A stretch of DNA of 36,223 nucleotides from Candidatus Woesearchaeota archaeon (GCA_016180105.1 JACPBZ010000004.1:1-36223), one strand, 5' to 3'. Positions 12,295 through 31,110 are shown, counted from the first letter of the stretch. Notes: generated by a model from the letters alone, not told the origin. Made by a program: numbers and translations.

Positions 12295-12547
12295 CGGGAA
12301 ATGGTTGCAAACTATTTAATTCTGCCTTATATAAACTTTAGAAGGATTCTCAAGCAGGTTTTTGGATTAAAAGCCGTTTATTAAAAATTCGTTATGTTTA
12401 TAAATTTTATAAAGTATAAGCGAAATTTATTAATTTGCTCGCACCGTTTTTTGTCATTGCTATTTTTGGGGGGGGAGCTTTTCCCAGAGACTGCAAAACA
12501 GGGACGACATAACACAAAGCACGAGCTGCATAGAGGAGGTGTGAAGG
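12295..12547 (+). promoter_or_regulatory. Intergenic region with promoter candidates for the polysaccharide operon and the zinc-finger gene
   Basis: Minus strand: GTTTATATAA at 12327-12336 is the TATA box for the zinc-finger gene. Plus strand: AT-rich TATA candidates at 12396-12408 (GTTTATAAATTTT) and 12423-12436 (AAATTTATTAATTT) probably start the long operon, with a leader of 90-120 nt. The leader contains a run of eight G (12470-12477) and ends with GAGGAGGTG (12533-12541), a near-perfect ribosome site 7 nt before the GTG start. Confidence 0.5.
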
Positions 12548-13459
12548 GTGCCGCAAAAGAAGTCAAGCATAGCTGGAGCTTTAAGCTTCGATTCGCAAGC
12601 CGAATCGGTTACAAAGAATACTGCAACGGAAAAGGTTAGCACGGCCTGTGTGGTTATCCCCACTTACAATGAAGCTCAGAATATTTTAGATGTTCTTGAT
12701 GCTTTTTTCGATCAGGCAAGGCTGATTAACAGGAACGCCAATGGCGATGCCATAGCTGTCCAAGTCTTGGTTGTTGATGACAGTTCCCCTGATGGCACTG
12801 CGTTCGTGGTCGAAAGGTATGCCAGGAAGAATTCCAGCGTTCATCTTCTGTTAAGGCCGGGAAAGGGCGGGCTTGGCTCTGCCTATATTGCGGGCATGAG
12901 GCACGCCATTGATGCCATCAATCCCGACGTGATTGTTGAGATGGATGCTGACCTTTCGCACAATCCAAGGGATGCTTTCCGGCTTATTATGGGCATTCGC
13001 GAAGGTGCTGATTTTGCAATCGGCTCCAGGTATGTTGACGGCGGCAGGTTGCCTGATAATTGGGGACTTCACAGGAGGGTGATTAGCACGCTTTCCAATT
13101 TGACAACGAAGCTTATTCTTGGCCTGTGGTCGGTGAAGGATTGCACTGGGGGTTTCAGGGCAATCCGGACTAGCATTCTGAAAAAAATCGACCTTGCTGG
13201 CCTGAATGTCAGGGGTTATGCGTTCCAGGCCGTGATTCTTGATGCTGCAATTCGCAATGGCGCCAGCGTGGTTGAGATTCCAATCACTTTCTCTGAGAGG
13301 AATGCTGGCAAAAGCAAGATGGGATTGATTGACCTTGTTGAGGGCGGCCTTGTTCTGCTTAAGGCAAGGCTTGGCCGTGCATCCGGTCGGAGGCTGCCTG
13401 TTGCGCCGGGAATTTTTGCAAAGCGCGAACTTGGTTCGGGTGGGAACAATGATGCTTGA
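12548..13459 (+). CDS. Dolichol-phosphate-mannose-synthase-like GT2
   Basis: 303 aa, GTG start fixed by GAGGAGGTG. It is a GT-A glycosyltransferase of the DPM1/GtrB type, which loads a sugar from a nucleotide donor onto a polyprenyl phosphate at the cytoplasmic membrane face. Motifs: VVIPTYNEAQNI (about 35-46), VLVVDDSSPDGT, GKGGLGSAYIAGM, the metal-binding DADLSHNP, IGSRYVDGG and VKDCTGGFRA, then IPITFSERNAGKSKM. There is no membrane domain; in many archaea a GtrA membrane domain is fused here, but in this operon it is the first domain of the next gene. The 3' end overlaps that gene by 11 bases, so translation is coupled. First gene of the operon. Confidence 0.93.
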   Translation: MPQKKSSIAGALSFDSQAESVTKNTATEKVSTACVVIPTYNEAQNILDVLDAFFDQARLINRNANGDAIAVQVLVVDDSSPDGTAFVVERYARKNSSVHLLLRPGKGGLGSAYIAGMRHAIDAINPDVIVEMDADLSHNPRDAFRLIMGIREGADFAIGSRYVDGGRLPDNWGLHRRVISTLSNLTTKLILGLWSVKDCTGGFRAIRTSILKKIDLAGLNVRGYAFQAVILDAAIRNGASVVEIPITFSERNAGKSKMGLIDLVEGGLVLLKARLGRASGRRLPVAPGIFAKRELGSGGNNDA

Positions 13460-16400
13460 CGTTGACAGCCGGAAGGCAAGAAGGCTGCTTGCGTTTGGTG
13501 CCGTGGGCGGTTTTGGCATGCTTCTTAACACGTTGATTCTTTACGCACTGACGGGCATCGGAGTTCACTATCTTCTGGCTTCGATAATAGCTACTGAGGC
13601 GGCCATTCTTTCGAATTTTATCAACAATCACGTGTTCACATTCAAGAATAGCATAAAGGGCCCCTGGCTCAGGAAGCTTGTTTCCTTTCAGACAATCAGC
13701 GTCACCACAATTCTTGGGACTGCTTCCATCCTGTGGCTTCTTGTCACGCTTTTTGGGGAGAGGCTGTTGCTTGTGTGGAATGCGGTTGCCATCCTGGTGA
13801 TGTTCCTGTTTAATTTCTCGCTTAATTCGCGTTACACCTGGCCTGAAAATGACCAGAATGCCCTTAAGGTGGTTTCAAGAGCTTCTGTGGTTGCGGCTGC
13901 GATTTTCTTGAGCGCGATGTTTTCCACAGTTGAAGTTGCGGCTGCAGACACTGTTGCAGTTTCCCAGCTGGGCTATCACCCGGACTCGTTCAAGCAGGTT
14001 GTCGTATATACCGGTGCCAGTAGCGGAACAGCTTATTTGCACCAGCAGGGCTCTGGCTTGGTTGTTGCGCAGTTTGCTCTTTCAAAGCCCGTGAATTATT
14101 ATGGTGCTTCAGTTGAGTGCCAGGGGAACCAGTCCTGTCTTGTGGCAGACTTTTCAAGCTTTAAAACGCCAGGCGCGTATTATGTTGAGACTGCGGATGG
14201 CGACCGATCTCCCTCTTTTATTGTCAGCAGCAGTGTTTTTTCAGGCAATGCCCCGGTGCTCCTTGAATTTTTTAACGCCCAGCTCCAGCAGGATTCAGCA
14301 TACCACGCTGATATGCATTCAGGATATGACCCTGCATTCAATGCCATTGCTGACGGAAGTTTCTTGATGGAGTCTGACCAGGCGTCCATTTCTTTGATGA
14401 GGCTTGGCAGTGCCTATCGCAGGAATCCCGCAGTCTTCTCCAGTGACTCATACAATATTCTTGCTGCTGGGAAGCCTGACATCCAGGAATACATTGTCAC
14501 GTATGTGGATTATCTTGAGGGCCTTCAGGGAGTTGAGGTTGAGGAGAGGAGTGACGGCTCGGGCTTCAGGCTTGACAGGGGCGTGAAGGTCAATAATGCG
14601 TTTGTGCCTGGCCCGACATCGCTTACTTCCTTGGACGTTTACATTCCAGGCAGCCCGCCCCAGCTTCTTGAGACGGTTCCTGTTGTTTCGCTATGCGGTG
14701 CTGATGATGGCAGCCCTGCGTGGGACAGTTGCGTGGCTGACGCCGCATTGTACTACAAGTGCCAGGTTGATGAGCCGTGCCTGAGCATAAGCTACGTGGA
14801 TAAGACAGGGTCGGTTTTGGGGAGAAGCGGTTATGCAATGCCTAAGGGCTGGGGCTATGAGTTTGGGTGCTTCTTTGACGTTGAATTGGGTGAGGAGATT
14901 TTCAATGGAAAATACAACCCGTGCATGGTGTTCCATCCCGAGTCTAGCCGGGACCATACTGCCAAGGCGCTTCTTGCTTACCTTGAGGCTGTTCCGGCAG
15001 TTTATGATTATTCTTCCGCGCGCGGCGAGTCTTTGCTTTCAAGGGCGGTAGCGACTTACGATTACATTAAGGGCAGTTATCCTGCTTTTGGAGTTGGTGA
15101 CAGCGATGCCGGATACTGGGGCGCTTCGCTTTTCCTGCTTTACGACTATACTGGCAGTTCGAGCTATCTTGCCGAGGCTTATGGGATGCGTGACAAGGTT
15201 TCAGCGTTATTTATTTCAGATGCAACCCGGGGCAATGATTTTTACTGGGAGGAGTATGTTCGGCACAGGGCCGCAATCGCTGCAGCCGGCTTTTCTTACC
15301 AGTACAATGGCCAGAATCCGGAAGAGTTTTTCCGCGGAAAGATGTTTGGCGACTACAAGGACCTGGGCTATACTTCCATATCCAATAATGGCGAGCGCGT
15401 TTACCAGTTTGCGCCAGGCATACAGTTCCATAACAGCAGGTATATGCTGATTGAGGGTCTTTTTGCTGCCAAGACAGGGAGCCTGCATCCTAGTCCAGAA
15501 TCTTTCATCACTGATGTTGCCGATGCCCAGCTTGCCTGGCTCACTGGGATGAACAGGGTGCAGCAGGATGTTTCGCTGGGAAGCCCTGTGGGTTCTATGA
15601 GCTTTATTTACGGAATTGGGGACTTCCCGGAAAAGTTCCATTCCAGGTACCTTGTTGATACAGGCTACAGCGCAGCGAGCAACGGTGAGGTCGTGGGAGC
15701 CAGGGGGACTGATCTGCTATTTTATGATGGCTCAGGTTATGTTTCGCTTGATGGAAAACACGAGATTCTCGGCAGCGTCCTGGGCTCCCTTGGCAACGGT
15801 TGGAAGAGCGAGCCAAAGCTGAGCACGTTTTCGCTGAAGCCGTTCAATAACGGCAAGAGCTACATTCCAGGATGGATTTCCGGGGCTTTTGACATAACTA
15901 CCCCGGCCGAGACTGATGTCATCTTCAATTTCAAGGACAGCTTCACTTACGAGTTTACCGAGACAACCAATGAGATGGTTGCCATCGCTGTTGAGCTCTT
16001 CGCTTACCGCGACGCTGAATTGAACAATCGCCAGCCTCACCCTGGCATTCCAGGCGGGATTCCTCCGGAGATTATAGTTGGCAACAGCACCAATGCAACA
16101 ATCATTCCGCCTGGCAATAGCACGAATAACACAATTACGCCGCCAAACAATGGCACAAACGCGACAATATTGCCGCCTGGCAATAGCACAGGCACCCGGG
16201 GCAACAGTTCAGCCAAAATTACAGGCTCCAGCACCAACCTCACGAAGCCATTGCTTGCAAGCGCTTATCATATGTTTGAAACGGACAGTGCAAGATTTTT
16301 CGTTAATCTCAATCAGTCGGGGAACGTGTCGTGGTCTGTTGACGGCAAAGGCGTGCTGAACACCACAGGGCCTAACAGCACTTTCATTTGGACTCCGGGG

Positions 16401-17777
16401 TTGCTATACACTAGCAACGTGAAAAAATCCGCCGTGACCGCCAGCACCGGCACTGACTTTGAGCAATGGGATGTTGATGTTGAGTTCGTCGTTAACGCGT
16501 TTTTCTCTGGCCAGGATGACGGGCCTGACTCTGTTGGAAGCGCTGACGCCAAGGTGCACGTCTTCACTAACACGAAAAAGGCGAGCTTTACGCAGCTTGC
16601 AGTCGTGCTTGAAAGCGAGGGCGGCGTGAAAAGCACGCACAATCTTGCTGTCCAGTTCGCCAACAATAGTGAAGTTGACTGGAGCGCCTTCATTCAGGGC
16701 CTTCCCTACGGGGATAGTTACATTGCGGAAGCGGTTGGATTTGACAACAATACTAATTTAACAACGAAGTTTGTCTTTCCCCGCCTCAGGGCACATTACC
16801 ACAACTGGCCCCCGAATGTCCAGTCCAATTCCCAAAGCAGTTCAGTCTCCTCATCTGAAAGGAGCTCTGAAGAAGCCGCGCCTCGCCAATATCTGCCTAA
16901 TTTAGTGTATGTCTTGTTTGAGCACGATGTAGTTAACATCAGCCAAAGGCAAAGAGTCACGTTGGATGCGAAGATTGACCGCGGCGAGATTTTGGGCATT
17001 CGGGCATTTATACTCACTCCGGCAGGCAGCCGTATGGAGCCAAATCTCAAGTTGGTTTCTGGCACTGCAGGTTACGGCACCTGGCAGGCTGAATTCGATG
17101 TGCCTTCGGTTCCCGGCAGGTACCTTCTTGAGCGCGTTGCAATTAGGGTTAATAACACCAGGGAGTCTTTCCAGGTCCTTGCCAATGGCACGTCATTCTA
17201 TGCGATTAACGAGACTGTATCGCCTGAAGAGCGTTTGATGCTCGTGAACACGCTGTTGAACGTGAGCGTTGTTGACCCAAGGGGGCGCGTGCTTTTCAGT
17301 GTTGACGCCAGGGACAGCGCTGGCATCACGAATGCAACCGCTGAAGTTGAGATTTCAAGGGGCAGGAAACGGATTGGGATTTTTACTGTGCAGCTTGGCC
17401 TTAAAGGCAACAACAGCCAGTATGGCACTTGGCAGGCCGTGATTGCTGCTGAGGAGCAGGATTCCACGTACTCCGTAAGGGAAGTTACGCTTTACAACAG
17501 GAATGACAGCAAGCCTTACGCGATAACTAAGAGGAGTTTTTACGTCAATCCTGAGCGGAAAAGCGCCAGCCTGGCTGCCAACCAGATAACAGGCTACGTT
17601 ACTGGCCCGATTGAAAGGGCCGGGAAGTGGTCAATTGACCAAATTCGAAAAATGCCTTTGGTTCCGACCCTTCTTGGCTTTGGGATTGCCCTTGCCATAG
17701 CCGGCGTTATGGTAACTGGTGGCAACGTGAAACAGCGCCTTAAGGGAGCGCGCTCAGAGGGGGAGGCTAAGGGATGA
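13449..17777 (+). CDS. GtrA flippase domain fused to GH9 cellulase-like ectodomain
   Basis: 1442 aa from ATG 13449 (a second ATG follows at once); upstream in-frame codons lie inside the GT2 gene. Residues 10-132: GtrA, four helices with SNFINNHVFTF and FNFSLNSRYTW, typical of lipid-linked-sugar flippases. Residues 141-166: hydrophobic helix ending VEVAAA, like the signal peptide of a once separate enzyme. Residues 168-275: CelD-type N-terminal Ig domain (VAVSQLGYHPDSFKQ). About 280-855: GH9-like (alpha/alpha)6 region with TETTNE near 842 (acid position) and KFHSR near 729, but ADGSF where GH9 normally has DAGDY. Then an Asn-rich sequon linker (867-935), Ig-like domains, and a C-terminal membrane helix (about 1401-1423) with a basic tail. 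Its stop overlaps the next ATG (ATGA). Hydrolysis is likely but not certain. Confidence 0.88.
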   Translation: MMLDVDSRKARRLLAFGAVGGFGMLLNTLILYALTGIGVHYLLASIIATEAAILSNFINNHVFTFKNSIKGPWLRKLVSFQTISVTTILGTASILWLLVTLFGERLLLVWNAVAILVMFLFNFSLNSRYTWPENDQNALKVVSRASVVAAAIFLSAMFSTVEVAAADTVAVSQLGYHPDSFKQVVVYTGASSGTAYLHQQGSGLVVAQFALSKPVNYYGASVECQGNQSCLVADFSSFKTPGAYYVETADGDRSPSFIVSSSVFSGNAPVLLEFFNAQLQQDSAYHADMHSGYDPAFNAIADGSFLMESDQASISLMRLGSAYRRNPAVFSSDSYNILAAGKPDIQEYIVTYVDYLEGLQGVEVEERSDGSGFRLDRGVKVNNAFVPGPTSLTSLDVYIPGSPPQLLETVPVVSLCGADDGSPAWDSCVADAALYYKCQVDEPCLSISYVDKTGSVLGRSGYAMPKGWGYEFGCFFDVELGEEIFNGKYNPCMVFHPESSRDHTAKALLAYLEAVPAVYDYSSARGESLLSRAVATYDYIKGSYPAFGVGDSDAGYWGASLFLLYDYTGSSSYLAEAYGMRDKVSALFISDATRGNDFYWEEYVRHRAAIAAAGFSYQYNGQNPEEFFRGKMFGDYKDLGYTSISNNGERVYQFAPGIQFHNSRYMLIEGLFAAKTGSLHPSPESFITDVADAQLAWLTGMNRVQQDVSLGSPVGSMSFIYGIGDFPEKFHSRYLVDTGYSAASNGEVVGARGTDLLFYDGSGYVSLDGKHEILGSVLGSLGNGWKSEPKLSTFSLKPFNNGKSYIPGWISGAFDITTPAETDVIFNFKDSFTYEFTETTNEMVAIAVELFAYRDAELNNRQPHPGIPGGIPPEIIVGNSTNATIIPPGNSTNNTITPPNNGTNATILPPGNSTGTRGNSSAKITGSSTNLTKPLLASAYHMFETDSARFFVNLNQSGNVSWSVDGKGVLNTTGPNSTFIWTPGLLYTSNVKKSAVTASTGTDFEQWDVDVEFVVNAFFSGQDDGPDSVGSADAKVHVFTNTKKASFTQLAVVLESEGGVKSTHNLAVQFANNSEVDWSAFIQGLPYGDSYIAEAVGFDNNTNLTTKFVFPRLRAHYHNWPPNVQSNSQSSSVSSSERSSEEAAPRQYLPNLVYVLFEHDVVNISQRQRVTLDAKIDRGEILGIRAFILTPAGSRMEPNLKLVSGTAGYGTWQAEFDVPSVPGRYLLERVAIRVNNTRESFQVLANGTSFYAINETVSPEERLMLVNTLLNVSVVDPRGRVLFSVDARDSAGITNATAEVEISRGRKRIGIFTVQLGLKGNNSQYGTWQAVIAAEEQDSTYSVREVTLYNRNDSKPYAITKRSFYVNPERKSASLAANQITGYVTGPIERAGKWSIDQIRKMPLVPTLLGFGIALAIAGVMVTGGNVKQRLKGARSEGEAKG
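16074..16195 (+). repeat. Tandem Asn/Pro sequon-linker repeat
   Basis: Imperfect units encode PPGNSTN-T-I-type blocks (GNSTNATIIPPGNSTNNT, then PPNNGTNATILPPGNST). The DNA phrase CCTGGCAATAGCAC recurs. The stretch supplies six or more N-x-S/T glycosylation sites between the GH9 and Ig regions. Confidence 0.75.
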
Positions 17778-19519
17778 ACCAGGTTCTGAGGCTTTTGCCT
17801 TTTGCAAGCTTGAAAGCGAATGGCGATGGCTCGCGCTCAGGAGCGGAGTATGCCTCTATGATTGAGTCTGCTGATGTCGTCGAGATAAAGCGCCAGGGCT
17901 GGCCCTATCTTGCGTTTTATGTCGTGTTTGGCCTTATCAGTCTCGGGCTGATGATTTACTACCTTTCAAACACCATTATTCACTACACGACAGGGCAGCA
18001 GTTTCCAATAAACTCTTTCCAGAGGTTCCCGCTGACTTTTCTCATATTCCCCGCTGAGGTTTTTTCATTCTGCTTTGGGATGTATTTTGTTTACCTTCTG
18101 GTTTCAGGCGCAAGGAAGGGGCTTCCTCCCAAGCCGTTGAGGAGGGCGATGAGCGGGAAGGTTGCGTTGCTTGTTCCGGTCTATAATGAGCCTTCCGAGA
18201 TTGTTGAAAGGACAGTTGCAGCCTGCAAGAGAGTAAGATGGTGGAGGGGCACGTCTGTTTACATACTTGACGACTCAACTGAAGAGCAGCACGTTGATGC
18301 AATGGCGTCCCTTGGGAGAAAATACGGATGCCACGTTGTGAGGAGGCCTGACAGGGTTGGCTATAAGGCGGGCAACGTTAACAATGCCGTTGCCAATGTT
18401 ATCAGGGAGCCTTATTTCGCGATTTTTGATGCGGACCAGGCGCCGCTGCCTGAGTTTCTTGAGGAGAGTATGGACTATTTCAGTGACTCCACTGTTGCCT
18501 TTGTACAGGCGCCCCAGCATTACGTTAACGCCAATACTCCTCTTGAGAAGGCTGCAAGGATGGGCACCGGTCTTTTCTTCCAGGCACAGTGCTCAAGCAA
18601 GGCCAAGGATGGCGCAATGCCCTTTTGCGGCACAAATGCGGTAATAAGGGCTGATGTTTTTCGCGCTGTCAGGGGGTTCTCCTACTATACCTCCACGGAG
18701 GATGTTGAGCTTGGCTTGAGGATGAATGACGCTGGTTACCAGGGCGCTTTCGTGCCAAAAGTCCTCGTTCACGGCTATGCCCCTCCGGATTTTGTTGCGT
18801 ATTCATCCCAGCAGTATCGCTGGGCTAATGGCAACCTTGCCATTTTGAGGGAGAATTGGCTGAGGATTTTGTCAGGCAATCTCTCATTGAAGCAGCAAGT
18901 CCACACTTTTTTCACGCTTGGATGGTGGCTTGTTGGGATTGTCAGCCTGATTTACATTGCCGTCCCGCTGCTTTCACTCTTCCTGAACACCGGCACTCAC
19001 CATACCTGGCTGCCCAATGCGCTTCTTTTGCTGCTTTATTTGAATGTCTCAATGGGCATGATACTTGTTTACATTGCCCTGCGCAACCGCACCGGGGAGC
19101 CTGTCCGGTTCACAGATACCCTCCTGCAGTACAGCCTCATTGTTAACAGCGCCTTCATTTACGCAAGGGCGGCAATTGGCGCCTTCCTGAAAAGGTACAT
19201 TGGCTTTGTCCGCACAAACAAGGCTGGTTCCAGTTCAGGCTGGAGGCACATTGCCGGGAATGTGGCTTTGTCTGGGATTTGCTTTTCAGCAAGCATATAT
19301 GCGCTTTTCAGGTCAGCTTCGGCAGTGAGTCCCGAAGAGATAAGGGCATTCGTTCCAATTTCCCTGTGGCTGCTTTTCTACAGCGTTGTTTTCGCCAGTT
19401 CGATGCTGTTCATAGGCGCCAAACCGGCTTCTGTTGCCCTTCCCGTGAAAAGCCCGCACGCAGGGATTAGCTTGGCTGGTGCGAGGCCATCCAATGGAGG
19501 TGTGCCTAATGCAGCGTAG
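17774..19519 (+). CDS. Cellulose-synthase-like processive GT2
   Basis: 581 aa, the third gene, overlapping the previous stop (ATGA). Residues 42-115 hold two or three membrane helices. The GT domain is cytoplasmic: ALLVPVYNEP (131-140), D166-D167 (ILDDS), D219-A-D221, FCGTNAVIR (284-292), catalytic base T308-E-D310 and Q346-Q-Y-R-W350 (QxxRW). Four to five more helices follow (about 375-540). This is the BcsA/hyaluronan-synthase arrangement, in which one protein both polymerises a beta-linked glycan and translocates it. FCGTNAV matches the BcsA FCGS-A pattern. There is no PilZ domain, so no c-di-GMP control is expected. With GH8- and GH9-like hydrolases in the same operon, a beta-1,4-glucan-like product is a reasonable guess; other beta-glycans are possible. 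Confidence 0.93.
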   Translation: MNQVLRLLPFASLKANGDGSRSGAEYASMIESADVVEIKRQGWPYLAFYVVFGLISLGLMIYYLSNTIIHYTTGQQFPINSFQRFPLTFLIFPAEVFSFCFGMYFVYLLVSGARKGLPPKPLRRAMSGKVALLVPVYNEPSEIVERTVAACKRVRWWRGTSVYILDDSTEEQHVDAMASLGRKYGCHVVRRPDRVGYKAGNVNNAVANVIREPYFAIFDADQAPLPEFLEESMDYFSDSTVAFVQAPQHYVNANTPLEKAARMGTGLFFQAQCSSKAKDGAMPFCGTNAVIRADVFRAVRGFSYYTSTEDVELGLRMNDAGYQGAFVPKVLVHGYAPPDFVAYSSQQYRWANGNLAILRENWLRILSGNLSLKQQVHTFFTLGWWLVGIVSLIYIAVPLLSLFLNTGTHHTWLPNALLLLLYLNVSMGMILVYIALRNRTGEPVRFTDTLLQYSLIVNSAFIYARAAIGAFLKRYIGFVRTNKAGSSSGWRHIAGNVALSGICFSASIYALFRSASAVSPEEIRAFVPISLWLLFYSVVFASSMLFIGAKPASVALPVKSPHAGISLAGARPSNGGVPNAA

Positions 19520-21743
19520 CTATGGCTATAATGACTCGGAGCTTGTGCGCGGCAATGGTAGTGGAAGCACTCTTGGGAAAGCCTTCAGCATTTGCGCCGC
19601 AGTGGTCTTGATATTTGCTCTTTGGCTTGCATTGAATCAAAAGCTTTTGTTTGGGAAGGAATGGATTTCTGCAACTTATGATAACTCAGAATGGCGAACT
19701 AATGAGGGAGGGCTTTCAACTTACGGCGCCTGGGACTTTGAAGCCCACGTCTGGAAGACTGAGTTCATACTGAAGTATTTTCCGCACTTTAACTGGAATC
19801 CTTTCTGGTATATGGGAATGCCGCTGCTGGAATATTACCAGCCGGCATTTTACGCAGTTCACGCTGCCGTGATGTTCCTTACGGGGTTGAGCGCCCCAAA
19901 GGCTGCGTTGATGCTTGTCATATTCGGGCATCTGCTTGCCACGTACGTGACTTTCCTGCTTTGCTACAAGCTTTCAAGAAGGGTCTGGATTTCAGCAATG
20001 TGCGCCGCATTTCTTCTCAGCAACACTTTTGTCACGCTGCGAAGCTATGGCTGGGAGCCCATTACCGTTGTCTTCCTCTTCCTTTACCCTCTGGGGCTGC
20101 TATTCTTTTTCAAGGAGCCGTTAAAGCCTTTCAGGGCTTCTGTTATCATCACGTTGGCGGTTTCCTATCTTGCTCATCCACTGATTTTTTTCGCTTTGGC
20201 GATGACAATGGGCGTGTATCTTCTCATAATTGCCATTACTGCTGAGCCCGGGTCAAGCGCTGCGAACACAAGATACCTGCTTGGCCTCGCAGGCGCTGTT
20301 GCCGTGAGCCTGCTTCTTTCGGCAGTCCAGTTCATACCTCAGCTCTCATACAACCAGGTGACTTCCGGGGCCCATATGGGCGTGAAGTACCTGCCTTTTT
20401 ATCAGGTGCCATATAACATCATCACGCCGCAGGATTTTTTTCTTGATGCTGGGAATCTTAAGGGGCCTGGCCCTATTATAATCATTGCAACTCTTCTGAT
20501 CCTGATTTTTTTCCTGGCGGAAGTCAGCAGGAAGAAGTACTCTTTGTCAGGTTTTATTCCGTCTACCCTGAGGACGATAAGGAATCACGAGCTGGTTTGC
20601 GGCCTGGCCGGTGTCCTGGCGATAATGGTGCTGCTCTATTATCTTGAGCGCTTTAATGTTTTCCCGATGAATATCCTGCGGTCAATCCAGTACCACAGGA
20701 TTATTCCTGAATTTGTCATTGTGGCTGCGGCACTTATTGCTGCCCTGTCTAATATTGCCATCACTAGCCGGCAGAAAATAGCATACGCGAGCTTGCTTTT
20801 TGCATTCATCCTTTCATCAGGGATAATAGTCTATAACGTCCAGGAAAAGTGGGCCACTTACGATGACATAAGCAGCAGGCCTGAGTTTGTTGAGCCCGGG
20901 AAAGGCCGCATCAGCTTCCCTTACATCGACCAGAGCATCTCTGTTAGGAGCTCCTTTGCTGAAATTCCCCAAACCTACGGCTATTATGAGCAAGGCATCA
21001 CGAATCCTTACAATGATGAGGTGTTTTCTGTTTCGTCCGGCTTTCATAATTCCAATTTGATGCTGCTTTACCTGCAGGCCGCAAACGTGGACAGGCTTTA
21101 CGTTAACACTGAGGAGGGCTTGCGGGGCAGGATAGTGATGGAGAGGATGAACATCACGTTCCCCTTGGTGCAAAATGGCTCTCGCTACGCCTACTTTGAG
21201 ATTCCGGTTGCTAACCCGTCGTTCAGCCAAGCCGTCAGTGCCAAGAGAGCATCAAAAGTCAGGGAACTGGAGCCAAACTGCCGCGTTATGTTCAGGGAAA
21301 GGTACTGCGGCAGCGCAAGGGAAGAGTTCGTGACCACTGACATTGAGGAAGTGCGTTACCTGGCGGCCTACGTTTCCCTGCTTGAGGAGCCTTACAGTGC
21401 AAATGCAAGCATTCTCATGATTAATCCCGAGCAGTATGAAATTCGGGTCGATAATGCGTCCTCTGACACTGCCGTTGTTGTCAAGATGACGTATGACAAG
21501 AATTTTGTTGCCACGGTAGATGGCAAGTCTGTTCCGATTGAGCCGTTTGGCCCGTACTTTATGCTGATAAAGCCCGGGCTGCAAGGCGGCTATTCTGTCA
21601 GGCTTGATTACGGCCTGAGCGTGGCAAGGATAGCCGGCATTGTCGTAAGCGCTCTGACAGCGACAGGCTTGGTGATGTTTAATGTCGTGAGGGCTTTTAG
21701 GCCGCTTAGGATGCTTAAGTTCAAGGAGGGTGATTTGGCTTGA
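19509..21743 (+). CDS. Multi-pass GT-C-like membrane protein
   Basis: 744 aa from ATG 19509, chosen because GGAGG lies 8 nt upstream; it overlaps the previous gene by 11 bases. A first helix (about 25-45) is followed by a loop WDFEAHVWKTEFILKYFPHF and WYMGMPLLEYYQPAFY. This acidic/aromatic first extracytoplasmic loop is typical of GT-C-fold polyprenyl-sugar transferases and of the '6-pyruvoyl-tetrahydropterin-synthase-related' membrane family. About ten further helices run to about 475. An extracytoplasmic beta-rich domain (about 480-715) and a last helix before a basic tail complete it. Likely role: transfer of lipid-linked sugars (supplied by the DPM-like GT2 and flipped by GtrA) onto the exported glycan or its protein anchor. 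That is inference from fold and position. Confidence 0.8.
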   Translation: MQRSYGYNDSELVRGNGSGSTLGKAFSICAAVVLIFALWLALNQKLLFGKEWISATYDNSEWRTNEGGLSTYGAWDFEAHVWKTEFILKYFPHFNWNPFWYMGMPLLEYYQPAFYAVHAAVMFLTGLSAPKAALMLVIFGHLLATYVTFLLCYKLSRRVWISAMCAAFLLSNTFVTLRSYGWEPITVVFLFLYPLGLLFFFKEPLKPFRASVIITLAVSYLAHPLIFFALAMTMGVYLLIIAITAEPGSSAANTRYLLGLAGAVAVSLLLSAVQFIPQLSYNQVTSGAHMGVKYLPFYQVPYNIITPQDFFLDAGNLKGPGPIIIIATLLILIFFLAEVSRKKYSLSGFIPSTLRTIRNHELVCGLAGVLAIMVLLYYLERFNVFPMNILRSIQYHRIIPEFVIVAAALIAALSNIAITSRQKIAYASLLFAFILSSGIIVYNVQEKWATYDDISSRPEFVEPGKGRISFPYIDQSISVRSSFAEIPQTYGYYEQGITNPYNDEVFSVSSGFHNSNLMLLYLQAANVDRLYVNTEEGLRGRIVMERMNITFPLVQNGSRYAYFEIPVANPSFSQAVSAKRASKVRELEPNCRVMFRERYCGSAREEFVTTDIEEVRYLAAYVSLLEEPYSANASILMINPEQYEIRVDNASSDTAVVVKMTYDKNFVATVDGKSVPIEPFGPYFMLIKPGLQGGYSVRLDYGLSVARIAGIVVSALTATGLVMFNVVRAFRPLRMLKFKEGDLA

Positions 21744-23050: not shown

Positions 23051-26000
23051 AAATGAAAATAAGGCTTGTTTTTGCAATATTCTCCTTGCTGATGCTGGCA
23101 GCAAGCTCGTTAGCGCCTGTGGCAGCCCACGGCACAAGCAGCAAGGAAGTCTATGTTCGCGTTGTATCAGCGAATCCGGACACAAGGACTTACACGTTCA
23201 GCTGCAGCACGTCCCCTGAAAACTCTTTCCTTCGCGACTGGTTCATAAGGCCCGATAACGGCGATACTGCTGATGACCAGAATGAGGCTGCCATTCTCGA
23301 CAAGCCTTCCGGGCAGCACCTCACATACACCTTTCCCAGTAATACCTTTTACCATATTGGCTGCCTTGTTTGGAATGACCAGGCATCAGAGCTTTACCGT
23401 GGAGACCTTCATCTTGACCTAAGAGGCCATCGTTGGGATCCCGAAATATTTCCCTTGAGTGGCAGCGACCTTCAGGCAAGTTACGAATGCAGGCACGGTG
23501 CAGGTGGCATTCCAAGCTGGGAAGTTGTCAATGCCTATACTGGGCAGCGCAGCTCCCTTCCTTCTGGAAATCCGCTCCAGCATTCTGTTTCAGGCCACGG
23601 CCTTTACGATTACATATGCCACATTAATGGGAAGTCAACAGGATTGCCTGTTGAATATTTTGATTCCGGCCAGCCTTATTTTCCTGACGCTTTTGGCGTC
23701 CCTCACGGAATCACTAATGTCTGGAACCGCAATGGCTCAACGCCCGCACCCCTGCCACCGCCTCCGCCTTCAGGCTCTTTTACAGCCTCGCTCAGTGTGA
23801 CTTCGGCAAGCGGCTTGCAAGCAAGCTTCCTTTGCGACCACAACGGCGGGAGCTCATACAACATCGACTGGTTTGCTGACCGGGCTGGAAAGCCGCAGCA
23901 AGTCCTGGCTATGGACGTGAAAGCCAAGGAGTTCAGCTACACTTTTGCCGAAACCGGAAGTTATAATGTAACCTGCGGCGTGTGGTCTGACAGCCTCAAC
24001 AGCTACGCGGACAGCACCAGGCAAATGACCCTTGGGTCATCTTCTCCCGCACCCCCGCCGCCGTCTAATGGCACGACAGACAATTCGGCAACGTGCACTG
24101 ACAAGACAGTGAACCAGCCTTGCGTGAAGTTGTCCGATGTTGATTCGGGCTGCCGAACCATCTCCTGGGCAGAGCCTGGCAAGTCCGCAATCGGGATAAA
24201 GGCGCAAGCTTGCAAGAAGCCAAACAACGTCCTGGAAGTTTCAAGGCAGGAATACAACAGCGAGCACAACCTTGAAGCGTGCTTCTCAGGGATTTGCGTA
24301 GACAAATACTGGGGATTCCGGAGCGGGGCAGCAAGCACGAACACGACAACTCCGCCTCCAGCAAACCAGACATACGGCCAGACTGACTTTCCTGAGCCTG
24401 GAAAGTTCGATGCAGCGCTGAACATTATGGCAGTCAATGGGCTGTTTGTGAATTTCCTTTGCGACCACAACGGCGGGAGCTCATACAACATCGACTGGTT
24501 TGCTGACCGGGCTGGAAAGCCGCAGCAAGTCCTGGCTATGGACGTGAAAGTCAAGGAGTTCAGCTACACTTTCCCGGAATCCGGGGCGTACACCGTGATT
24601 TGCGGCGTGTGGTCGGATTCCCTGAACGCATACGTTGATGACCGCAAGTCAGTTACTGTTTCAGGAACTTCTGGGGGGCAGAGCACGACATTCACTTCCC
24701 TTCCCATATGGATTGAGCCAACTAACGGCCTTGCAAATGTTGCGCCTAATTTCTTCCACCTGGCAATACAGGAGCCAAGCAGCAGCCAAAACGTCGCTTC
24801 CACGGATTGGGAAATCTGGAAGGCAGACCAGTCGGAAAGGCTATGGAGCGCAGTTGTCACGAGCTCAGCAAAGTACCACGTTCATACTCCTGACGGAACT
24901 TTCGAGGGAAGCCTGGCAGGCCAGCAACAGTTGCAATACGGCACGGCTTACAAGGCAAGGATGAGGCTGAAAGACACAAGCGGCAGTTACAGCCCCTGGG
25001 CAGAGTGGAGGGCATTCACCACAAGCGCACCTCCACCGAGCAATTTCAGCGGCACTTTAGCGTGGACTGCGGCAGCAGGCTTCAGGGTTGAAAAGTTCGC
25101 GACAGGGTTTGATGTGCCTGTTCACGTGGTGGCTGCTCCGCAGCAGCTCTACCAAAGTTATCCGGAAAGCCAAAGGCCATTCCTGTACGTGACAGAGCTC
25201 TACGGGCAGATAAAAGTAGTCTATAAGGACGGCAGTTCCTCAATATACGCCGACAATCTCCTGAACTTTGACCCGTTCGGCAGCATAACCGGCGGGGGCC
25301 AAATGGGCCTTGTCGGCCTGTATATCGACCCTCAAACAGGCGACCTGTTTGCCAGTATGACTTATGTTGAAAATGACCAGGTTAAGAACGAGGTTGAAAG
25401 GTTTTACTCGACAGACGACGGAAAATCCTACACCGTGAGGGCAACAGTAATCAGCAACCTTCCGTCCGCGCCGTCGCACCAGGTCCAGCAAATTGCAAAA
25501 GGGCCTGACGGCAAGCTCTACGTTGCTCTTGGGGATGCTGACACTCAAAGCTACCCGCAGAGCGACACTGTCCTGGCTGGAAAGATAATCAGCATGAATA
25601 TGGACGGCTCCGATGTCCAGGTTTATGCAAAGGGCTTCAGGAACCCATTCGGGATTGAATGGCGCCCTGGGATGAGCCAGCTCTTCGCGACAGACAATGC
25701 GCCTGATACCGGGGACAGGCTGCTTAAGGTCAATCAGGGTGGAAACTATGGATGGTGCTGCTCATTTCCTCCAGGCATAGCTCCGTTGAATGTTTCCCCG
25801 GTTGATGTTGAGTTCAATCCTGGAAGTTCAGGATTTCCTGACTCGCTCACAGGCAAGCTCTACGTTGCAGTCGCAGGGCCGGTTTATCAGCAGGGCCCGG
25901 TGAATGGCAAGCACATCCTGGAATTCACGTTGGATGCCAACGGCAACGTCCAATCAGGAAGGGAGTTTGTGAAATACACCGGCAGCGGATATGGAACCCC

Positions 26001-26436
26001 AATAGGAATGGACTTTGCAGCAGACGGGCTGTATTTCACGGACATCTATGGGGAGCCGGGCTTTGTCGGCCTTGGAGAAACAGAGGCTAACATCTATCGC
26101 GTGGTGCAGGGTGAGCCGACAGGCTGCACAAGTGGCTGCGCGGGAACGTTCAGGGCTGGAATCCAGGTAAAGCCCTGGTATCCGAAAGACACCGGGACAG
26201 GAATCGAGTACGTGTTCCAGTGCGACGGCATAGACGGCTCTGGAAATTATCTTTACGACTGGGATCTTGGGGATGGCAAGAAATCCTTCGGCAGCACATC
26301 CAACACTCAGTACAACAAGTACCCATATGGTAACAAGGACTACACGGTTTCTTGCACGGTTAACGACAAGACTACTGGCAAGGAAGCATCGGCCAGTATG
26401 GTAATCAACCCAGATGACTTTATTTTCGGAAGGTGA
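23047..26436 (+). CDS. Secreted glucose/sorbosone-dehydrogenase-like protein with PKD-like and Cys modules
   Basis: 1129 aa, GTG 23047 (ATG 23053 is nearly as good), overlapping the previous stop. Signal peptide 1-27. About 30-230: two Cys-containing beta domains. About 240-325 and 450-535: two copies of a PKD-like domain (FLCDHNGG, IDWFADRAGKPQQVLAMDV, TCGVWSDS). Between them (345-425) is a six-to-eight-Cys module (ATCTDKTVNQPC, CFSGICVDKYWG) also found in the last operon gene. About 545-655: fibronectin-III-like. About 670-1020: PQQ-type sugar-dehydrogenase beta-propeller (PF07995-like) with SHQVQQIAKGPDGKLYVALG, GKIISMNMDG and VYAKGFRNPFGIEW. About 1035-1120: C-terminal PKD-like (YDWDLGDGK). 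There is no membrane anchor. It may oxidise sugar ends of the exported polymer or simply bind it. Confidence 0.85.
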   Translation: MKMKIRLVFAIFSLLMLAASSLAPVAAHGTSSKEVYVRVVSANPDTRTYTFSCSTSPENSFLRDWFIRPDNGDTADDQNEAAILDKPSGQHLTYTFPSNTFYHIGCLVWNDQASELYRGDLHLDLRGHRWDPEIFPLSGSDLQASYECRHGAGGIPSWEVVNAYTGQRSSLPSGNPLQHSVSGHGLYDYICHINGKSTGLPVEYFDSGQPYFPDAFGVPHGITNVWNRNGSTPAPLPPPPPSGSFTASLSVTSASGLQASFLCDHNGGSSYNIDWFADRAGKPQQVLAMDVKAKEFSYTFAETGSYNVTCGVWSDSLNSYADSTRQMTLGSSSPAPPPPSNGTTDNSATCTDKTVNQPCVKLSDVDSGCRTISWAEPGKSAIGIKAQACKKPNNVLEVSRQEYNSEHNLEACFSGICVDKYWGFRSGAASTNTTTPPPANQTYGQTDFPEPGKFDAALNIMAVNGLFVNFLCDHNGGSSYNIDWFADRAGKPQQVLAMDVKVKEFSYTFPESGAYTVICGVWSDSLNAYVDDRKSVTVSGTSGGQSTTFTSLPIWIEPTNGLANVAPNFFHLAIQEPSSSQNVASTDWEIWKADQSERLWSAVVTSSAKYHVHTPDGTFEGSLAGQQQLQYGTAYKARMRLKDTSGSYSPWAEWRAFTTSAPPPSNFSGTLAWTAAAGFRVEKFATGFDVPVHVVAAPQQLYQSYPESQRPFLYVTELYGQIKVVYKDGSSSIYADNLLNFDPFGSITGGGQMGLVGLYIDPQTGDLFASMTYVENDQVKNEVERFYSTDDGKSYTVRATVISNLPSAPSHQVQQIAKGPDGKLYVALGDADTQSYPQSDTVLAGKIISMNMDGSDVQVYAKGFRNPFGIEWRPGMSQLFATDNAPDTGDRLLKVNQGGNYGWCCSFPPGIAPLNVSPVDVEFNPGSSGFPDSLTGKLYVAVAGPVYQQGPVNGKHILEFTLDANGNVQSGREFVKYTGSGYGTPIGMDFAADGLYFTDIYGEPGFVGLGETEANIYRVVQGEPTGCTSGCAGTFRAGIQVKPWYPKDTGTGIEYVFQCDGIDGSGNYLYDWDLGDGKKSFGSTSNTQYNKYPYGNKDYTVSCTVNDKTTGKEASASMVINPDDFIFGR
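23827..23945 (+). repeat. 119-bp intragenic direct repeat, copy 1
   Basis: Matches 24454-24572 with a single mismatch (C at 23924 versus T at 24551), 627 bp (209 codons) apart, inside the first PKD-like domain. The flanking parts of the domain are much more diverged, indicating recent duplication or gene conversion. Confidence 0.9.
24454..24572 (+). repeat. 119-bp intragenic direct repeat, copy 2
   Basis: Second near-identical copy, in the second PKD-like domain of the same gene. A third, protein-level copy lies in the next gene near 28980-29190. Confidence 0.9.
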
Positions 26437-26443
26437 GAAAAAT

Positions 26444-29400
26444 ATGACAAGCAACTCCGGGAGCATATTGAAAGTCGCACTGCTGTTGTGCGCTTTTCTT
26501 GCAATGGCGGCCGAGTCCAGGGCAGACATTGCCGCAGTCTCTCAGCTCGGATACCACCCTGACTCCTTCAAGCAGGCAGTGCTCTATACTTCGTTAGGGA
26601 GTGATTCCTTTCAGGTTATTGAAAAGTCAACCGGGGAGCCGGTTTATTCAGGCGCCTTTGCCAAGCCGAAAAACGACAATGGTGACAGCGTAAGCTGCCA
26701 AGGAGGGATGTCTTGCCTCGTCGGCGACTTCTCGTCGTTCACAAGAGAAGGAAGCTACTATGTCAAGGCGGGTTCCGGGACGATTTCTTCTGATTTCAGG
26801 ATTGGCAGCGATGTTTTCAGCAGCACATCCTTGCTCTTGCTTGAGCCGTTTAGTGCGTGGCTTCAGCAAGGCTCGGGTTATCACGCTGACGTGTTCAAGA
26901 ATGTTGAGCCTCCTTTCCCGATGATGGCCGATGGCTCGTTCATAATGAAGGCTGATATGGCAACTTTAACTCTCATAAGGCTTGGCGCTGCTTACAACCG
27001 AAATCCAGGACTTTTCAGCACTGATAAGTATTATGTCACGAGAGATGACACTCCTGACATTGCCGAGCACATCCGCAAGTACACTGACTACGTGGCGATG
27101 CTTCAGGATTATGAGCCTTCATCCGCTGTCTCGGAAGGATGGAAGAACAGCTTCAAGTGCCCCTGGGATGTTACTCCTGATACTTCAAAGTTCAACGACG
27201 CTCCGCAACCTTGCATGTCGTTTGTTTCTGAAACAAGCGATCTTAACACTGCAATGGCTCTCCTTGCCTATGTTGAGGCGATTCCGGCCATTTACCAGGA
27301 GGAAGGCAAGGGCGCTGCGCAAAAGCTCCTTGACAGGGCGATAAAAACAGAAGCTTATCTGAGAGGCAGGCAAATGGGCAGCGAAGCCTCAGGATTTTAC
27401 GCTGCTTCCCTTTTCCTGATTTACGATTACACGGGTGATGAGAAATACCTCAGGGCTGCCCACGGTGCAAGGGGCCAGGTTTCAAAGGCGCTTGATTCCC
27501 TCAGGACATACGGCAACGAGTACTACTGGGAGGAGTACGTGAGGCACAAGGCGGGCATCACGGGCCTCGGCCTTGAGTATGAGCACGGCGGCAAGGACCC
27601 GGCTGAGTATTTCAGCGATAAGCTTGAGCAGGACTGGAGCCGCATCCGGGACCCGGTTTCCCGCAATGGGGAGAGGCTTTTCCAGTATGACAACAACATC
27701 CAGTTTATGAACAGCAGGACGATGCTTGCCGAGGCAGTCATCGCAGCCAAGGCAGCTGATTTTGACTCGGATGAAAAGTTCAGGGTAATTGCGGATGCCC
27801 AGCTCGCTTGGCTGACTGGAATGAATGCGGTTCAGCACAGCAGCGACAGCTCTGGAGGCGGCCCGTTGGAATCCAGAAGCTTCATTTTCGGGATTGGAAA
27901 GTTCCCCAAGGAGTTTCATTTTCAGTTCACTCCAGCCTCATTCTTCAGGAATGGCTGGTCATTTAACAATGGCCTGCGATATGTGCCTGGCTGGATAAAT
28001 GGCGCGTTTGACACTTTCGGTGACGGCGACGGGATTTACAACTACGTGGACAAGCACTCATATTGGCAATATACTGAAACAACAAACGAAGTGGTTGCAA
28101 CGGCAATGGAGCTTTACTCAATTCTTGATTCGCAATACAATGAAAAAAGCACAGTGGGAAGGCCGAGACTGGCGGGCAGTTCTCCGGACATTCCTGAAAA
28201 TCCGATTCAGGATCCCGTTACAGGCGCGCCTTCAGGCCCCGGGATTTTTGTCTCGAAAAATCCTGAGAGGTCTGGCTCGTTTGAGCTTGAAGGGTCGGTT
28301 CTAAAAGGGGACGCATATGTTTTCGTGCAGCCTGATGCGAAAATCAGGAGGGTTGCGTTTTTTATTGATGACGTTTCTGGCAGCAAGCCTCCTTACGAAA
28401 TCGAGAACAGCCCTGCTTTTGACTTGGCCGGGACTGCGCCCAATGGCAACGCTCTTCCGTTTAGCGCAGCCAGCCTCTCTGTTGGGCAGCACACGATAAC
28501 CGCAATGGTCACGTTCAATGACGACACGCTGCAGGTTGCCAGCGCCGCTTTCACGATAGCAGGCAGCGATGACAGTGGCAGTCCAGTGCAAGATCCAGTC
28601 AACAATCCGGGAAATGGTGGAAGCGACCTTCCGGGTAACAATCAGGCTGCAACGTGCACTGACAGGACAGTGAACCAGCCCTGCGCAAGGCTTTCCGAAG
28701 CTTATGACGGCTGCACCACGACGGTGTGGGCTGAGCCTGGAAGCACAAGGCCCGCAATAATTGCGAAAGCCTGTAGCAAGCCAGACATTACGCTGGAAGT
28801 TTACAGGCAGTCTTATGACTCTTCCCACGACCTTGAGGCGTGCTTTCACGCTGTTTGCGTAGGCAAGAACTGGGGCTCAAGGTCTGGGCCTGATCCGGAC
28901 TCCCCATTCCAGCCCTCGCCAGGCCAAGGTCAGCCGGTGACGCCAAAGCAGTTCACTGCAAGCCTTAGCATCACGTCAATCAACGGCCTCTTTGTCGGGT
29001 TCCTGTGCGACCACGACGGCGGCGGCAGCTTCAACATAGACTGGTTCGCTGACCGCGAAGGGAAGCCGCAAGAGACCCTCGCATCAGACTTGAAGGTCAA
29101 GGACTTCACCCACTCGTTTTCAGAATCCGGCACCTATGCCATTACCTGCGGCGTCTGGTCGGAGACAATGAACAGCTATGCTGACAGCGTCAAGGAGATT
29201 AAGGTCGATGGCAGCAAGGATAAGATGCCAAAGAAGCCTGAAATTTCTGTTCCAGGGCTTATGCTTTCGTTCAGCCCTGACAGGTCAGGGGCAGTCAGCC
29301 TTGATGGGAGAGAAGTGGCCGGCAACATTTACGTTTTTGCGGCTCCTGACAGGAGCGTCAGGAAAGTTGAGTTCTACGTTGACCAGTCCCTGAATCAGGT

Positions 29401-30766
29401 GGAAAATTGGCCGGCGTTTGACCTTTCGGGCACTGCCTCGGATGGCTCTGCCCTGCCTTTTTCAACCTCCAGCCTTTCACCAGGCAGCCACGTTATTACT
29501 GCCGCGGTGAAGCTTTCTGACGACTCCGCCCGCACGTTATCGGCAACATTTACGGTTAAGGCTGGAAGCGACAACAAAGACGAGAAGGAGGAAAAGGGTG
29601 AGGGCGGCGATGAAGGCGGTGTCAGGGAAAATCCCGTGCAGCAACAGCAAGTCCGGCTGATGTTCTCTTCAAACGGTGACCGGTCAGGCGCACAGTTGCT
29701 TGATGGGCAGGAAGTTACTGGCAAGATTTACGCGTTCGTTGTTCCGGACGGGGGCATAGCACAAGCCAGGTTCTACGTTGACGACGAGACCCAAAGCCCG
29801 AGCCCTGTCAGGATTGAAAGCTTGTCTCCATTTGACCTGGGTGGCACGGCAGGAAATAGGGACTCGCTGCCTTTCAGCATTGAACAATGGCAGCCAGGCA
29901 CCCACTCGATAACCACTGTCGTAACATTCAAGGATGGCACACTGCAAACGCTTACTGCAACTGTGGTAAAGACCGAATCAAAGCAAAATCCCTCAAGCCC
30001 GCAGCGGCCCGTGTCGCCACAGCTTTTAGTCTCTGAAAGCCCGGATCGCTCAGGCGCCGGCCCTCTTGGGGGCAGCAGCGTGAGCGGTGACATTTATGTT
30101 TTTGCGCAACCTTCTGGCGCTATAACGAAGGTTGAATTTTACATCGACGACAGCGGCTCAGTTTTCCAGACAGAAAACATTCCGGAATTTGACCTTGCAG
30201 GGACGCACTGGGATGGCAGCGCGCTGCCGTTTGATACTGGAAGCCTTGAAAATGGGGAGCACGTCGTTACCGCGGTTGTCACGTTCAATGACGGCGCTAT
30301 GCAAAAAGTTACCTCGCTGTTCACGGTGAGCAATGCCGCGGTGGGTGAGAGCCAGGGTGACCAGTTTGCAAGCCTGATTCAGCCTGACACCCCAACTCTG
30401 GCCAGGGTACTGATTTATTCAGATGATTCCCAGGCGCAGTACCAGTTTTCAGATGGGCGCGTCGAGGTTATTTGCTCTGATGCGTCAACGCAGATAATTG
30501 GCCCGGGCGAGGTGGCTCAGCCGTGCACGCCAGGATACGTCAGCATATTGTCCGCCCCTTCGGCAAGTTCCGGCCAGGTTGACAGCGTCCAGCAGGAATC
30601 AGTCCCAAGCGCGCCGCCAACTGCCCAGGCTGATAGCCGTAGCCTGATTTACTTGGACGAGTTCCAGATTCAGTACAGCTTTGGGGACGGCAGCATTGAA
30701 ACAATCTGCACGAATGGCGTCACGGCGATTACAGGGCCTGGCCAAGACACGCCGGACTGCAATTAA
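26444..30766 (+). CDS. Secreted multidomain GH9-like protein
   Basis: 1440 aa. ATG 26444 is preferred because GGTGAG lies 6 nt upstream and it starts a signal peptide (SILKVALLLCAFLAMAAESRA). Residues 28-135: CelD-type Ig domain (IAAVSQLGYHPDSFKQA). About 140-555: GH9-like region with YTETTNEVVA at the acid position but MADGSFIMK in place of DAGD, and EFHFQ in place of HHR. Four Big_7-like Ig domains start near 601, 939, 1071 and 1192 (each with RSGA/S, G-IYVF, V-FY-DD and G-H-ITA). Between the first and second lie the Cys module and PKD-like domain shared with the preceding gene. Two unfamiliar 40-45-aa repeats (LIY-D--Q-QY-F-DG, GPG, C) end the protein near 1322 and 1397. There is no membrane anchor. 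Last gene of the operon; probably glycan binding or trimming outside the cell. Confidence 0.87.
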   Translation: MTSNSGSILKVALLLCAFLAMAAESRADIAAVSQLGYHPDSFKQAVLYTSLGSDSFQVIEKSTGEPVYSGAFAKPKNDNGDSVSCQGGMSCLVGDFSSFTREGSYYVKAGSGTISSDFRIGSDVFSSTSLLLLEPFSAWLQQGSGYHADVFKNVEPPFPMMADGSFIMKADMATLTLIRLGAAYNRNPGLFSTDKYYVTRDDTPDIAEHIRKYTDYVAMLQDYEPSSAVSEGWKNSFKCPWDVTPDTSKFNDAPQPCMSFVSETSDLNTAMALLAYVEAIPAIYQEEGKGAAQKLLDRAIKTEAYLRGRQMGSEASGFYAASLFLIYDYTGDEKYLRAAHGARGQVSKALDSLRTYGNEYYWEEYVRHKAGITGLGLEYEHGGKDPAEYFSDKLEQDWSRIRDPVSRNGERLFQYDNNIQFMNSRTMLAEAVIAAKAADFDSDEKFRVIADAQLAWLTGMNAVQHSSDSSGGGPLESRSFIFGIGKFPKEFHFQFTPASFFRNGWSFNNGLRYVPGWINGAFDTFGDGDGIYNYVDKHSYWQYTETTNEVVATAMELYSILDSQYNEKSTVGRPRLAGSSPDIPENPIQDPVTGAPSGPGIFVSKNPERSGSFELEGSVLKGDAYVFVQPDAKIRRVAFFIDDVSGSKPPYEIENSPAFDLAGTAPNGNALPFSAASLSVGQHTITAMVTFNDDTLQVASAAFTIAGSDDSGSPVQDPVNNPGNGGSDLPGNNQAATCTDRTVNQPCARLSEAYDGCTTTVWAEPGSTRPAIIAKACSKPDITLEVYRQSYDSSHDLEACFHAVCVGKNWGSRSGPDPDSPFQPSPGQGQPVTPKQFTASLSITSINGLFVGFLCDHDGGGSFNIDWFADREGKPQETLASDLKVKDFTHSFSESGTYAITCGVWSETMNSYADSVKEIKVDGSKDKMPKKPEISVPGLMLSFSPDRSGAVSLDGREVAGNIYVFAAPDRSVRKVEFYVDQSLNQVENWPAFDLSGTASDGSALPFSTSSLSPGSHVITAAVKLSDDSARTLSATFTVKAGSDNKDEKEEKGEGGDEGGVRENPVQQQQVRLMFSSNGDRSGAQLLDGQEVTGKIYAFVVPDGGIAQARFYVDDETQSPSPVRIESLSPFDLGGTAGNRDSLPFSIEQWQPGTHSITTVVTFKDGTLQTLTATVVKTESKQNPSSPQRPVSPQLLVSESPDRSGAGPLGGSSVSGDIYVFAQPSGAITKVEFYIDDSGSVFQTENIPEFDLAGTHWDGSALPFDTGSLENGEHVVTAVVTFNDGAMQKVTSLFTVSNAAVGESQGDQFASLIQPDTPTLARVLIYSDDSQAQYQFSDGRVEVICSDASTQIIGPGEVAQPCTPGYVSILSAPSASSGQVDSVQQESVPSAPPTAQADSRSLIYLDEFQIQYSFGDGSIETICTNGVTAITGPGQDTPDCN

Positions 30767-30793
30767 GCTGTATTTGAACAGGGGGTGATTGTG

Positions 30794-31096: not shown

Positions 31097-31110
31097 AGCT
31101 TAAATAGTCC
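31096..31110 (+). promoter_or_regulatory. TATA box of the 31167 gene
   Basis: AAGCTTAAATAGTCC, right after the stop of the DUF2795 gene, predicts RNA from about 31130. A strong ribosome site AAGGAGGGTG (31152-31161) precedes ATG 31167. Confidence 0.5.

Follow-up and report, generated by a model that had tools for sequence, protein, structure and literature searches.

A candidate surface-polysaccharide island of Woesearchaeota that pairs a BcsA-type synthase with a predicted side-chain decoration set

What kind of glycan machinery is encoded by a block of seven closely packed genes, about 19 kb in length, in the draft genome of a Candidatus Woesearchaeota archaeon? The block lies on a contig of 36,223 nucleotides (JACPBZ010000004.1 of assembly GCA_016180105.1), which in its full length is referred to as the window, and its seven open reading frames (ORFs), named A to G, occupy the plus strand from 12548 to 30766, as a first-pass annotation of the window had placed them. 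That annotation had described an archaeal operon akin to the bacterial cellulose (bcs) operons, which would make, export, trim and decorate an extracellular beta-glycan. The reading favored here, to which a probability of about 0.6 is given, is that the block is a horizontally moving island in Woesearchaeota whose products would make a surface polysaccharide by the synthase-dependent route and add side chains to it. This reading is drawn from the touching gene order kept across families and the match of C to BcsA with its invariant motifs; from the GT-C matches and D-x-E motif of D, the family matches of A and of the GtrA domain in B, and the known makeup of three-component systems; and from the precursor genes of relatives, the empty sites, and the co-occurrence of GH9 with E.

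The following scheme, all of whose catalytic steps are predictions, was built on the observed gene content, packing, conservation, island, and protein folds and families. By analogy with BcsA, and in line with its invariant motifs, C would polymerize a beta-linked backbone from a nucleoside diphosphate (NDP)-sugar and would thread the chain out through its own transmembrane (TM) channel. Family membership and gene order suggest that A loads one sugar onto polyprenyl phosphate inside the cell, that the GtrA domain of B flips the lipid-linked sugar and, with fold as a further indication, that D adds the flipped sugar to the emerging chain outside. The membrane-anchored Ig-like ectodomain of B may serve as an outer guide beside C, in the place that BcsB holds in bacteria. 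E, the GH9 domain of B and the secreted G would trim, edit or release the chain, and F might conceivably oxidize sugar ends. The nucleotidyltransferase or phosphosugar mutase that joins the cluster in relatives would supply precursors.

Gene packing and conserved order

Overlaps of 11, 4 (ATGA), 11, 4 (TTGA) and 4 bp (GTGA) were found at the A-B, B-C, C-D, D-E and E-F junctions, respectively, and a gap of 7 bp separates F from G. The ORF calls and junction spacing thus bear out the seven overlapping or nearly touching genes, and the operon-like packing, that had been reported. Start codons were picked from relatives and from signal or TM context, and the start of B was placed near 13449 rather than at the TTG at 13329. 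By hydropathy, A has no TM segment and B has six, of which four belong to the GtrA region, one comes directly after it and the last closes the protein; C also has six, and D about 13. E begins with an N-terminal anchor, and the N-termini of F and G resemble signal sequences. The features are listed in Table 1.

Table 1. Features of the cassette and the island that contains it (window coordinates)
Feature	Position	Strand	Description
Genomic island	11628..31160 (approximate ends)		Between tRNA-Thr and ORF 31167; empty sites, GC content
A	12548..13459	+	Soluble GT2, dolichyl-phosphate-mannose (DPM) synthase/AglJ-like (putative polyprenyl-phosphate sugar synthase)
B	13449..17777	+	GtrA domain, GH9-like domain with CelD_N, Ig-like ectodomain, C-terminal TM helix
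B ectodomain and TM	16209..17774	+	Conserved, all-beta, adjoins synthase; six-locus alignment, model, Foldseek
C	17774..19519	+	Processive GT2, BcsA-type core without PilZ; DDS, DxD, FCGT, TED, QQYRW, FVRTxK
D	19509..21743	+	Predicted GT-C-fold membrane glycosyltransferase; outer D-x-E, C-terminal beta domain
E	21740..23050	+	Membrane-anchored clan GH-M glycosidase between GH8 and GH126; E112, D168, Y232 kept
F	23047..26436	+	Secreted; Glucose/Sorbosone dehydrogenase (GSDH) domain, Cys-rich module, PKD
G	26444..30766	+	Secreted, GH9-like; Big_7 repeats, Cys-rich module
Cys-rich module, F copy	24088..24327	+	80 aa; 60% identical to G copy
Cys-rich module, G copy	28649..28888	+	80 aa

The core order, which runs from the DPM-like GT2 through the GtrA/GH9/ectodomain protein, the BcsA-like GT2 and the GT-C protein to the GH8-like protein, recurs in metagenome-assembled genomes (MAGs) of several families. 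The order A-B-C-D-E is kept in G107 and G096, the latter with the GtrA part of B as a separate gene, and also in G230, in which the synthase gene (L056:6154-7864) is read in two overlapping frames that reflect either a frameshift or an assembly error. B-C-D-E was found in G074 and DeMMO2_30, on contigs that hold only part of B; UBA10207 has D-E, and in G311, which is fragmented, A-B is accompanied by separate GH9 genes. The same GtrA/GH9 fusion of B is present in G107 and G311, and the identity of A, C, D and E across families is 44-60%.

E was found in 5 of the 371 genomes sampled from the phylum, and full-length D in these very genomes; GH9 also occurs in 5, and four genomes are common to the E and GH9 sets (hypergeometric P about 3e-8). 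The island as a whole is carried by about 5 of the 371. Because the core order recurs in other families and E co-occurs with GH9, the gene arrangement is more than chance, and the gene set that the first-pass annotation had singled out is conserved together in relatives. When the E alignment was run against 84,980 species genomes (by two short peptide patterns; not exhaustive), only archaeal loci of this kind came up. The records with the closest cassettes are Candidatus Woesearchaeota MAGs and one further archaeon (isolate DeMMO2_30), four of them corresponding to genomes of the window's order, and the archaeal host that had been proposed is therefore correct.

The synthase and the comparison with bcs operons

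In a family scan, C was identified as a GT2 with a weak Cellulose_synt match, and the NCBIfam CelA model gave 1.6e-49 but remained below its cut-off. The profile of C matched BcsA structures at 3e-45 to 6e-40 (5ej1, 2.7e-45), with chondroitin synthase and DPM synthase far behind. The GT2 core motifs of Bcs (D, DxD, TED and QxxRW) are all present, and the six motifs listed for C in Table 1 are invariant across the cassette C proteins; the profile match and motifs support the BcsA-type synthase core. The glycan export proposed earlier has this homology of C to BcsA as its one basis.

In the five C proteins that were compared, the gating loop, which in this family closes over the nucleotide, reads FVRT[NS]K; the BcsA/Bgs rows tested have FxVTxK. 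The same V-to-R change is found in NdvB and in a Pseudoalteromonas GT2 that adjoins a GT87, and it does not tell the product. In trees that took in BcsA, Bgs-like, NdvB, PgaC, OpgH and archaeal GT2s, the cassette C proteins formed a clade of their own (100/99 and 100/100) outside BcsA, whose clade (98/95) was recovered without them; the sister position of the C clade was not well supported, and several rows were long-branched. A grouping of C with NdvB was considered and rejected: the FxRTxK gate is common to both, but the trees gave no supported join.

No PilZ was found in C or in the six cassette genomes, while control genomes gave matches, and no BcsB (PF03170) was found in these six genomes, while the control matched in E. 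coli and B. subtilis; BcsC was outside this search. The absence of PilZ and BcsB agrees with the first-pass annotation, but the membership in the bcs system that it had implied does not: with a synthase outside the BcsA/Bgs clade, an FVRTxK gate, and no BcsB or PilZ found, the cassette is not a member of that system by the features tested. What it has in common with the bcs operons (BcsA/BcsB/BcsZ) is the processive GT2 core and a clan GH-M glycosidase gene nearby, and what sets it apart, beyond the features just named, is the Ig-like ectodomain in place of BcsB, together with the decoration genes and GH9.

The C-terminal ~500 residues of B, with a TM segment at residues 1444-1462, are present in every locus that reaches that part (a six-locus alignment, in which one locus contributes only its end). 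The ectodomain was modeled (pLDDT 65) as all-beta, a string of Ig/MG-like sandwiches that ends in a short helix and the TM segment, and Foldseek matched it to complement MG and Ig domains, with no BcsB among the 50 matches listed. BcsB has flavodoxin-like domains, and a disguised BcsB was rejected on the Ig/MG-like model and the Foldseek matches listed. As the ectodomain adjoins the synthase, a role as an outer guide for the chain is suggested. The earlier description of B as a GtrA-GH9 fusion agrees with its GtrA and CelD_N matches and had overlooked this conserved ectodomain.

An archaeal cellulose system, in which C would make beta-1,4-glucan from UDP-glucose, E and the GH9 proteins would be helper cellulases, and A, GtrA and D would be accessory, is an unlikely explanation. 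It is in keeping with BcsA as the best structural-database match of C and with GH8 and GH9 being mainly cellulase families, but it is at odds with the clade and gate of C and with the lack of detectable BcsB and PilZ in the cassette genomes, and E is nearer to GH126, whose member PssZ acts on a non-cellulose exopolysaccharide.

Predicted decoration set, hydrolases and secreted proteins

A matched Glycos_transf_2 at 8e-28 and the AglJ model at 4.7e-17, the latter below cut-off, and DADxxHxP is invariant in its relatives. B matched GtrA_DPMS_TM (PF04138) at 4e-20; with these two family matches, the lipid-linked-sugar genes of the first-pass annotation are upheld. A sequence search with D gave nothing in Pfam, NCBIfam or PDB, and in the 371 genomes its sole matches beyond the cassette were two weak, partial ones to its C-terminus. 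When the low-confidence D model was compared with the PDB by Foldseek, the top 11 matches were all GT-C enzymes (AftA best at 3.7e-5; also OST, DPY19, AftD, PglB and ArnT). GT-C enzymes keep acidic catalytic residues in the first outer loop, and a D-x-E is invariant in the first outer loop of D. Known three-component systems consist of a GT-A enzyme, GtrA and a GT-C enzyme (PMC8035078, PMC11127046). Since D matches GT-C enzymes by fold, A, GtrA and D appear to form such a three-component lipid-linked-sugar decoration set; the earlier label of D as GT-C-like now has a fold match behind it, and the set as a whole had been overlooked. Clusters of relatives add a nucleotidyltransferase, with mannose-1-phosphate guanylyltransferase as its best model (below cut-off), and a phosphomannomutase/phosphoglucomutase-like (PGM/PMM) gene (also below cut-off); as a guess, a mannose side chain from GDP-mannose would fit.

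Like GtrA/GtrB/Gtr and CsbB/GtcA/YfhO, the cassette encodes a polyprenyl-phosphate GT2, a GtrA domain and a GT-C enzyme together. Unlike in those systems, its GtrA is fused to a glycosidase-ectodomain protein, the set accompanies a processive synthase, and the host is archaeal. Two partly similar rows on bacterial plasmids give the principle of the cassette precedents. One, from Lactiplantibacillus plantarum (L123:3680-8604), has a GT2-GtrA fusion, a BcsA-like GT2 and a polytopic protein in a row, and the other, from Pseudoalteromonas (L122:2032-5797), has a GT2 with FVRTPK followed by a GT87. However, no GH9, GH8-like or ectodomain gene was seen in either stretch, and the L. plantarum row differs further in that its synthase has PilZ and its polytopic protein has no detectable similarity to D.

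The presence of OST, PglB and DPY19 among the fold matches of D would also suit protein glycosylation, with D as an oligosaccharyl- or O-mannosyl-type transferase that uses lipid-linked sugars from A and GtrA on the secreted proteins of the island or on a surface layer. B has 26 N-x-S/T sequons in 1482 residues, but G has one in 1450 residues, the best single match of D is the polysaccharide enzyme AftA, and the processive GT2 and three glycosidase domains would be left unexplained. Protein glycosylation is judged to be quite unlikely.

E matched Pfam Glyco_hydro_8 at 7.5e-13. Over its full length it matched 3ren (CPF_2247, GH126) at 1.7e-25, compared with 5.6e-9 over part of its length for CelA (GH8). 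It keeps the acid Glu E112 and also D168, which align with E95 and D152 of CelA in the GH8 register, as well as Tyr232; in GH126, that Asp is shifted by one relative to GH8 (PMC13363691). Assignment as a plain GH126 was ruled out by the position of D168. Proteins intermediate between GH126 and clan GH-M have been mentioned (PMC13363691), and E looks like such a GH8/GH126 intermediate because its full-length match is to GH126, yet its Asp is in the GH8 register. The GH8-like label given earlier is thus right as to the Pfam match and the register, and it is refined by the nearest full-length match. Listeria PssZ, the second GH126 member with a solved structure, is a glycosidase specific for an exopolysaccharide. 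Published surveys of GH126, an earlier one (PMC7479077) among them, had no archaeal member, whereas E is archaeal.

CelD_N was matched in B at 4e-9 and in G at 6e-15; G also matched GH9 at 2e-5 (weak) and Big_7 at 8e-13. The catalytic GH9 domains in B and G have diverged strongly; both keep the late GH9 signatures with the His and the acid Glu (SFI[FY]GIGxFPxxFH and TETTNE, aligned with GH9 J30). F matched GSDH at 3.8e-21 as well as PKD and was closest (3e-16) to 3a9g, a Pyrobaculum aldose sugar dehydrogenase. His811 and Arg865 of F, the active-site residues of soluble PQQ sugar dehydrogenases, align with 3a9g and are kept in the G230 homolog, which adjoins a GH9 gene. The 80-aa Cys-rich module has only two copies in this genome and relatives in all five other cassette genomes, and it is possibly a tag for binding glycan or surface. 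In addition, a 181-nt segment of a PKD/Ig-like module occurs twice in F (23827-24634; 87% identical) and once in G (29000-29180; 72%), a repeat that points to recent exchange between these two secreted genes.

The three glycosidase domains and the sugar dehydrogenase carry signal or anchor sequences, as would be expected of a scavenging island whose GH8/GH9 enzymes and dehydrogenase degrade outside glycans and whose glycosyltransferases just coat these enzymes. This explanation is very unlikely: the island has no sugar importer or intracellular glycosidase, E directly follows the synthase and the GT-C gene in every locus, one GH9 is fused to GtrA, and precursor-making genes join the cluster in relatives. 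In summary, the synthase core, the lipid-linked-sugar genes and the glycosidases of the make-export-trim-decorate system proposed earlier stand by family, and its bcs membership does not.

The genomic island and its surroundings

The cassette is a genomic island. Two genomes of the window's genus, G012 and G013, have the flanking genes on both sides in the same order but no cassette; the left flank kept comprises 4975-6774, 6895-7491, the Rieske gene and the DUF192 gene, and the right flank comprises 31167, the AI-2E transporter gene and 32915. The spacing from the DUF192 gene to ORF 31167 is about 1.7-1.8 kb in these two genomes and about 19.7 kb in the window. The bordering tRNA is a tRNA-Thr(GGT), and G009 has a tRNA-Thr(GGT) at a distance of about 0.75 kb from ORF 31167. 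The GC content is 0.519 in the island and 0.484 and 0.459 outside. A chimeric or contaminant contig was ruled out by the conserved flanks around the empty site. The first-pass account, whose gene set holds, had overlooked both the island with its empty sites and the precursor genes of relatives.

A related block is present in a few distantly related Woesearchaeota and not in close cousins, and the island therefore probably spreads between species by horizontal movement; within the window's family, none of the 18 further genomes has a C ortholog. The alternative would be that the cassette is absent from relatives through loss instead of transfer.

Several points weigh against the reading as a mobile, side-chain-decorated polysaccharide island. 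No att repeat of at least 18 nt matching the tRNA-Thr end was found around the island, and there is no integrase among its genes. The G230 version of B is without the GtrA and GH9 parts, and the role of the GtrA domain might instead be to anchor A, as happens in fused DPM synthases. The D model is of low confidence (pLDDT 54), with TM-scores of 0.3-0.4. The general base of E was not placed, as the alignment stops before D278 of CelA, and the DAGD nucleophile/base Asp pair of GH9 is not recognizable in the cassette domains, in which one invariant Asp in a DGSF motif may replace it. No activity is known for the cassette proteins, which were assigned by family or fold.

If the polysaccharide-island reading is true, archaea possess a surface-polysaccharide island that is mobile, and in it synthase-dependent export is combined with three-component decoration, two systems that are usually treated separately; the genes would also offer a concrete set with which to test what glycan covers uncultured Woesearchaeota. 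About 2% of the draft genome (888 kb in 49 contigs, 89% complete) would be devoted to one glycan machine. DPANN genomes are very small, and these archaea are thought to rely on contact between their surface and their hosts. A more tentative proposal, with the odds somewhat against it, is that this is a distinct archaeal polysaccharide machine, mobile among Woesearchaeota, in which the BcsA-type synthase and the GT-C side-chain transferase act as one complex with the GtrA-GH9-ectodomain fusion as its hub, and which equips certain DPANN cells with a tailored glycan coat, with a possible effect on host attachment. In the open-licence PMC literature, whose coverage is incomplete, no earlier description of such a gene set was found, nor anything on point for a woesearchaeal cellulose synthase.

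Other features of the window lie outside the island. A very large secreted-type subtilase gene on the minus strand (3-4790; over 1596 aa) is cut by the contig end. At 8488-8585, ARAGORN gave a tRNA gene with a four-base anticodon (taag), which is probably a mis-parsed tRNA-Leu since the syntenic G012 has a tRNA-Leu(TAA) between the same neighbors. An SRA-HNH restriction-like gene (8589-9263) has a third-position GC content (GC3) of 0.316, compared with about 0.5-0.66 in its neighbors, and is missing from the syntenic stretch of G012 and G013; on both grounds, it is probably a separate recent insertion. At 34628-36147, two 92-nt direct repeats that are 93% identical flank a minus-strand toxin-antitoxin pair of AbiEii/AbiEi-like type (34704-35504 and 35483-35983).
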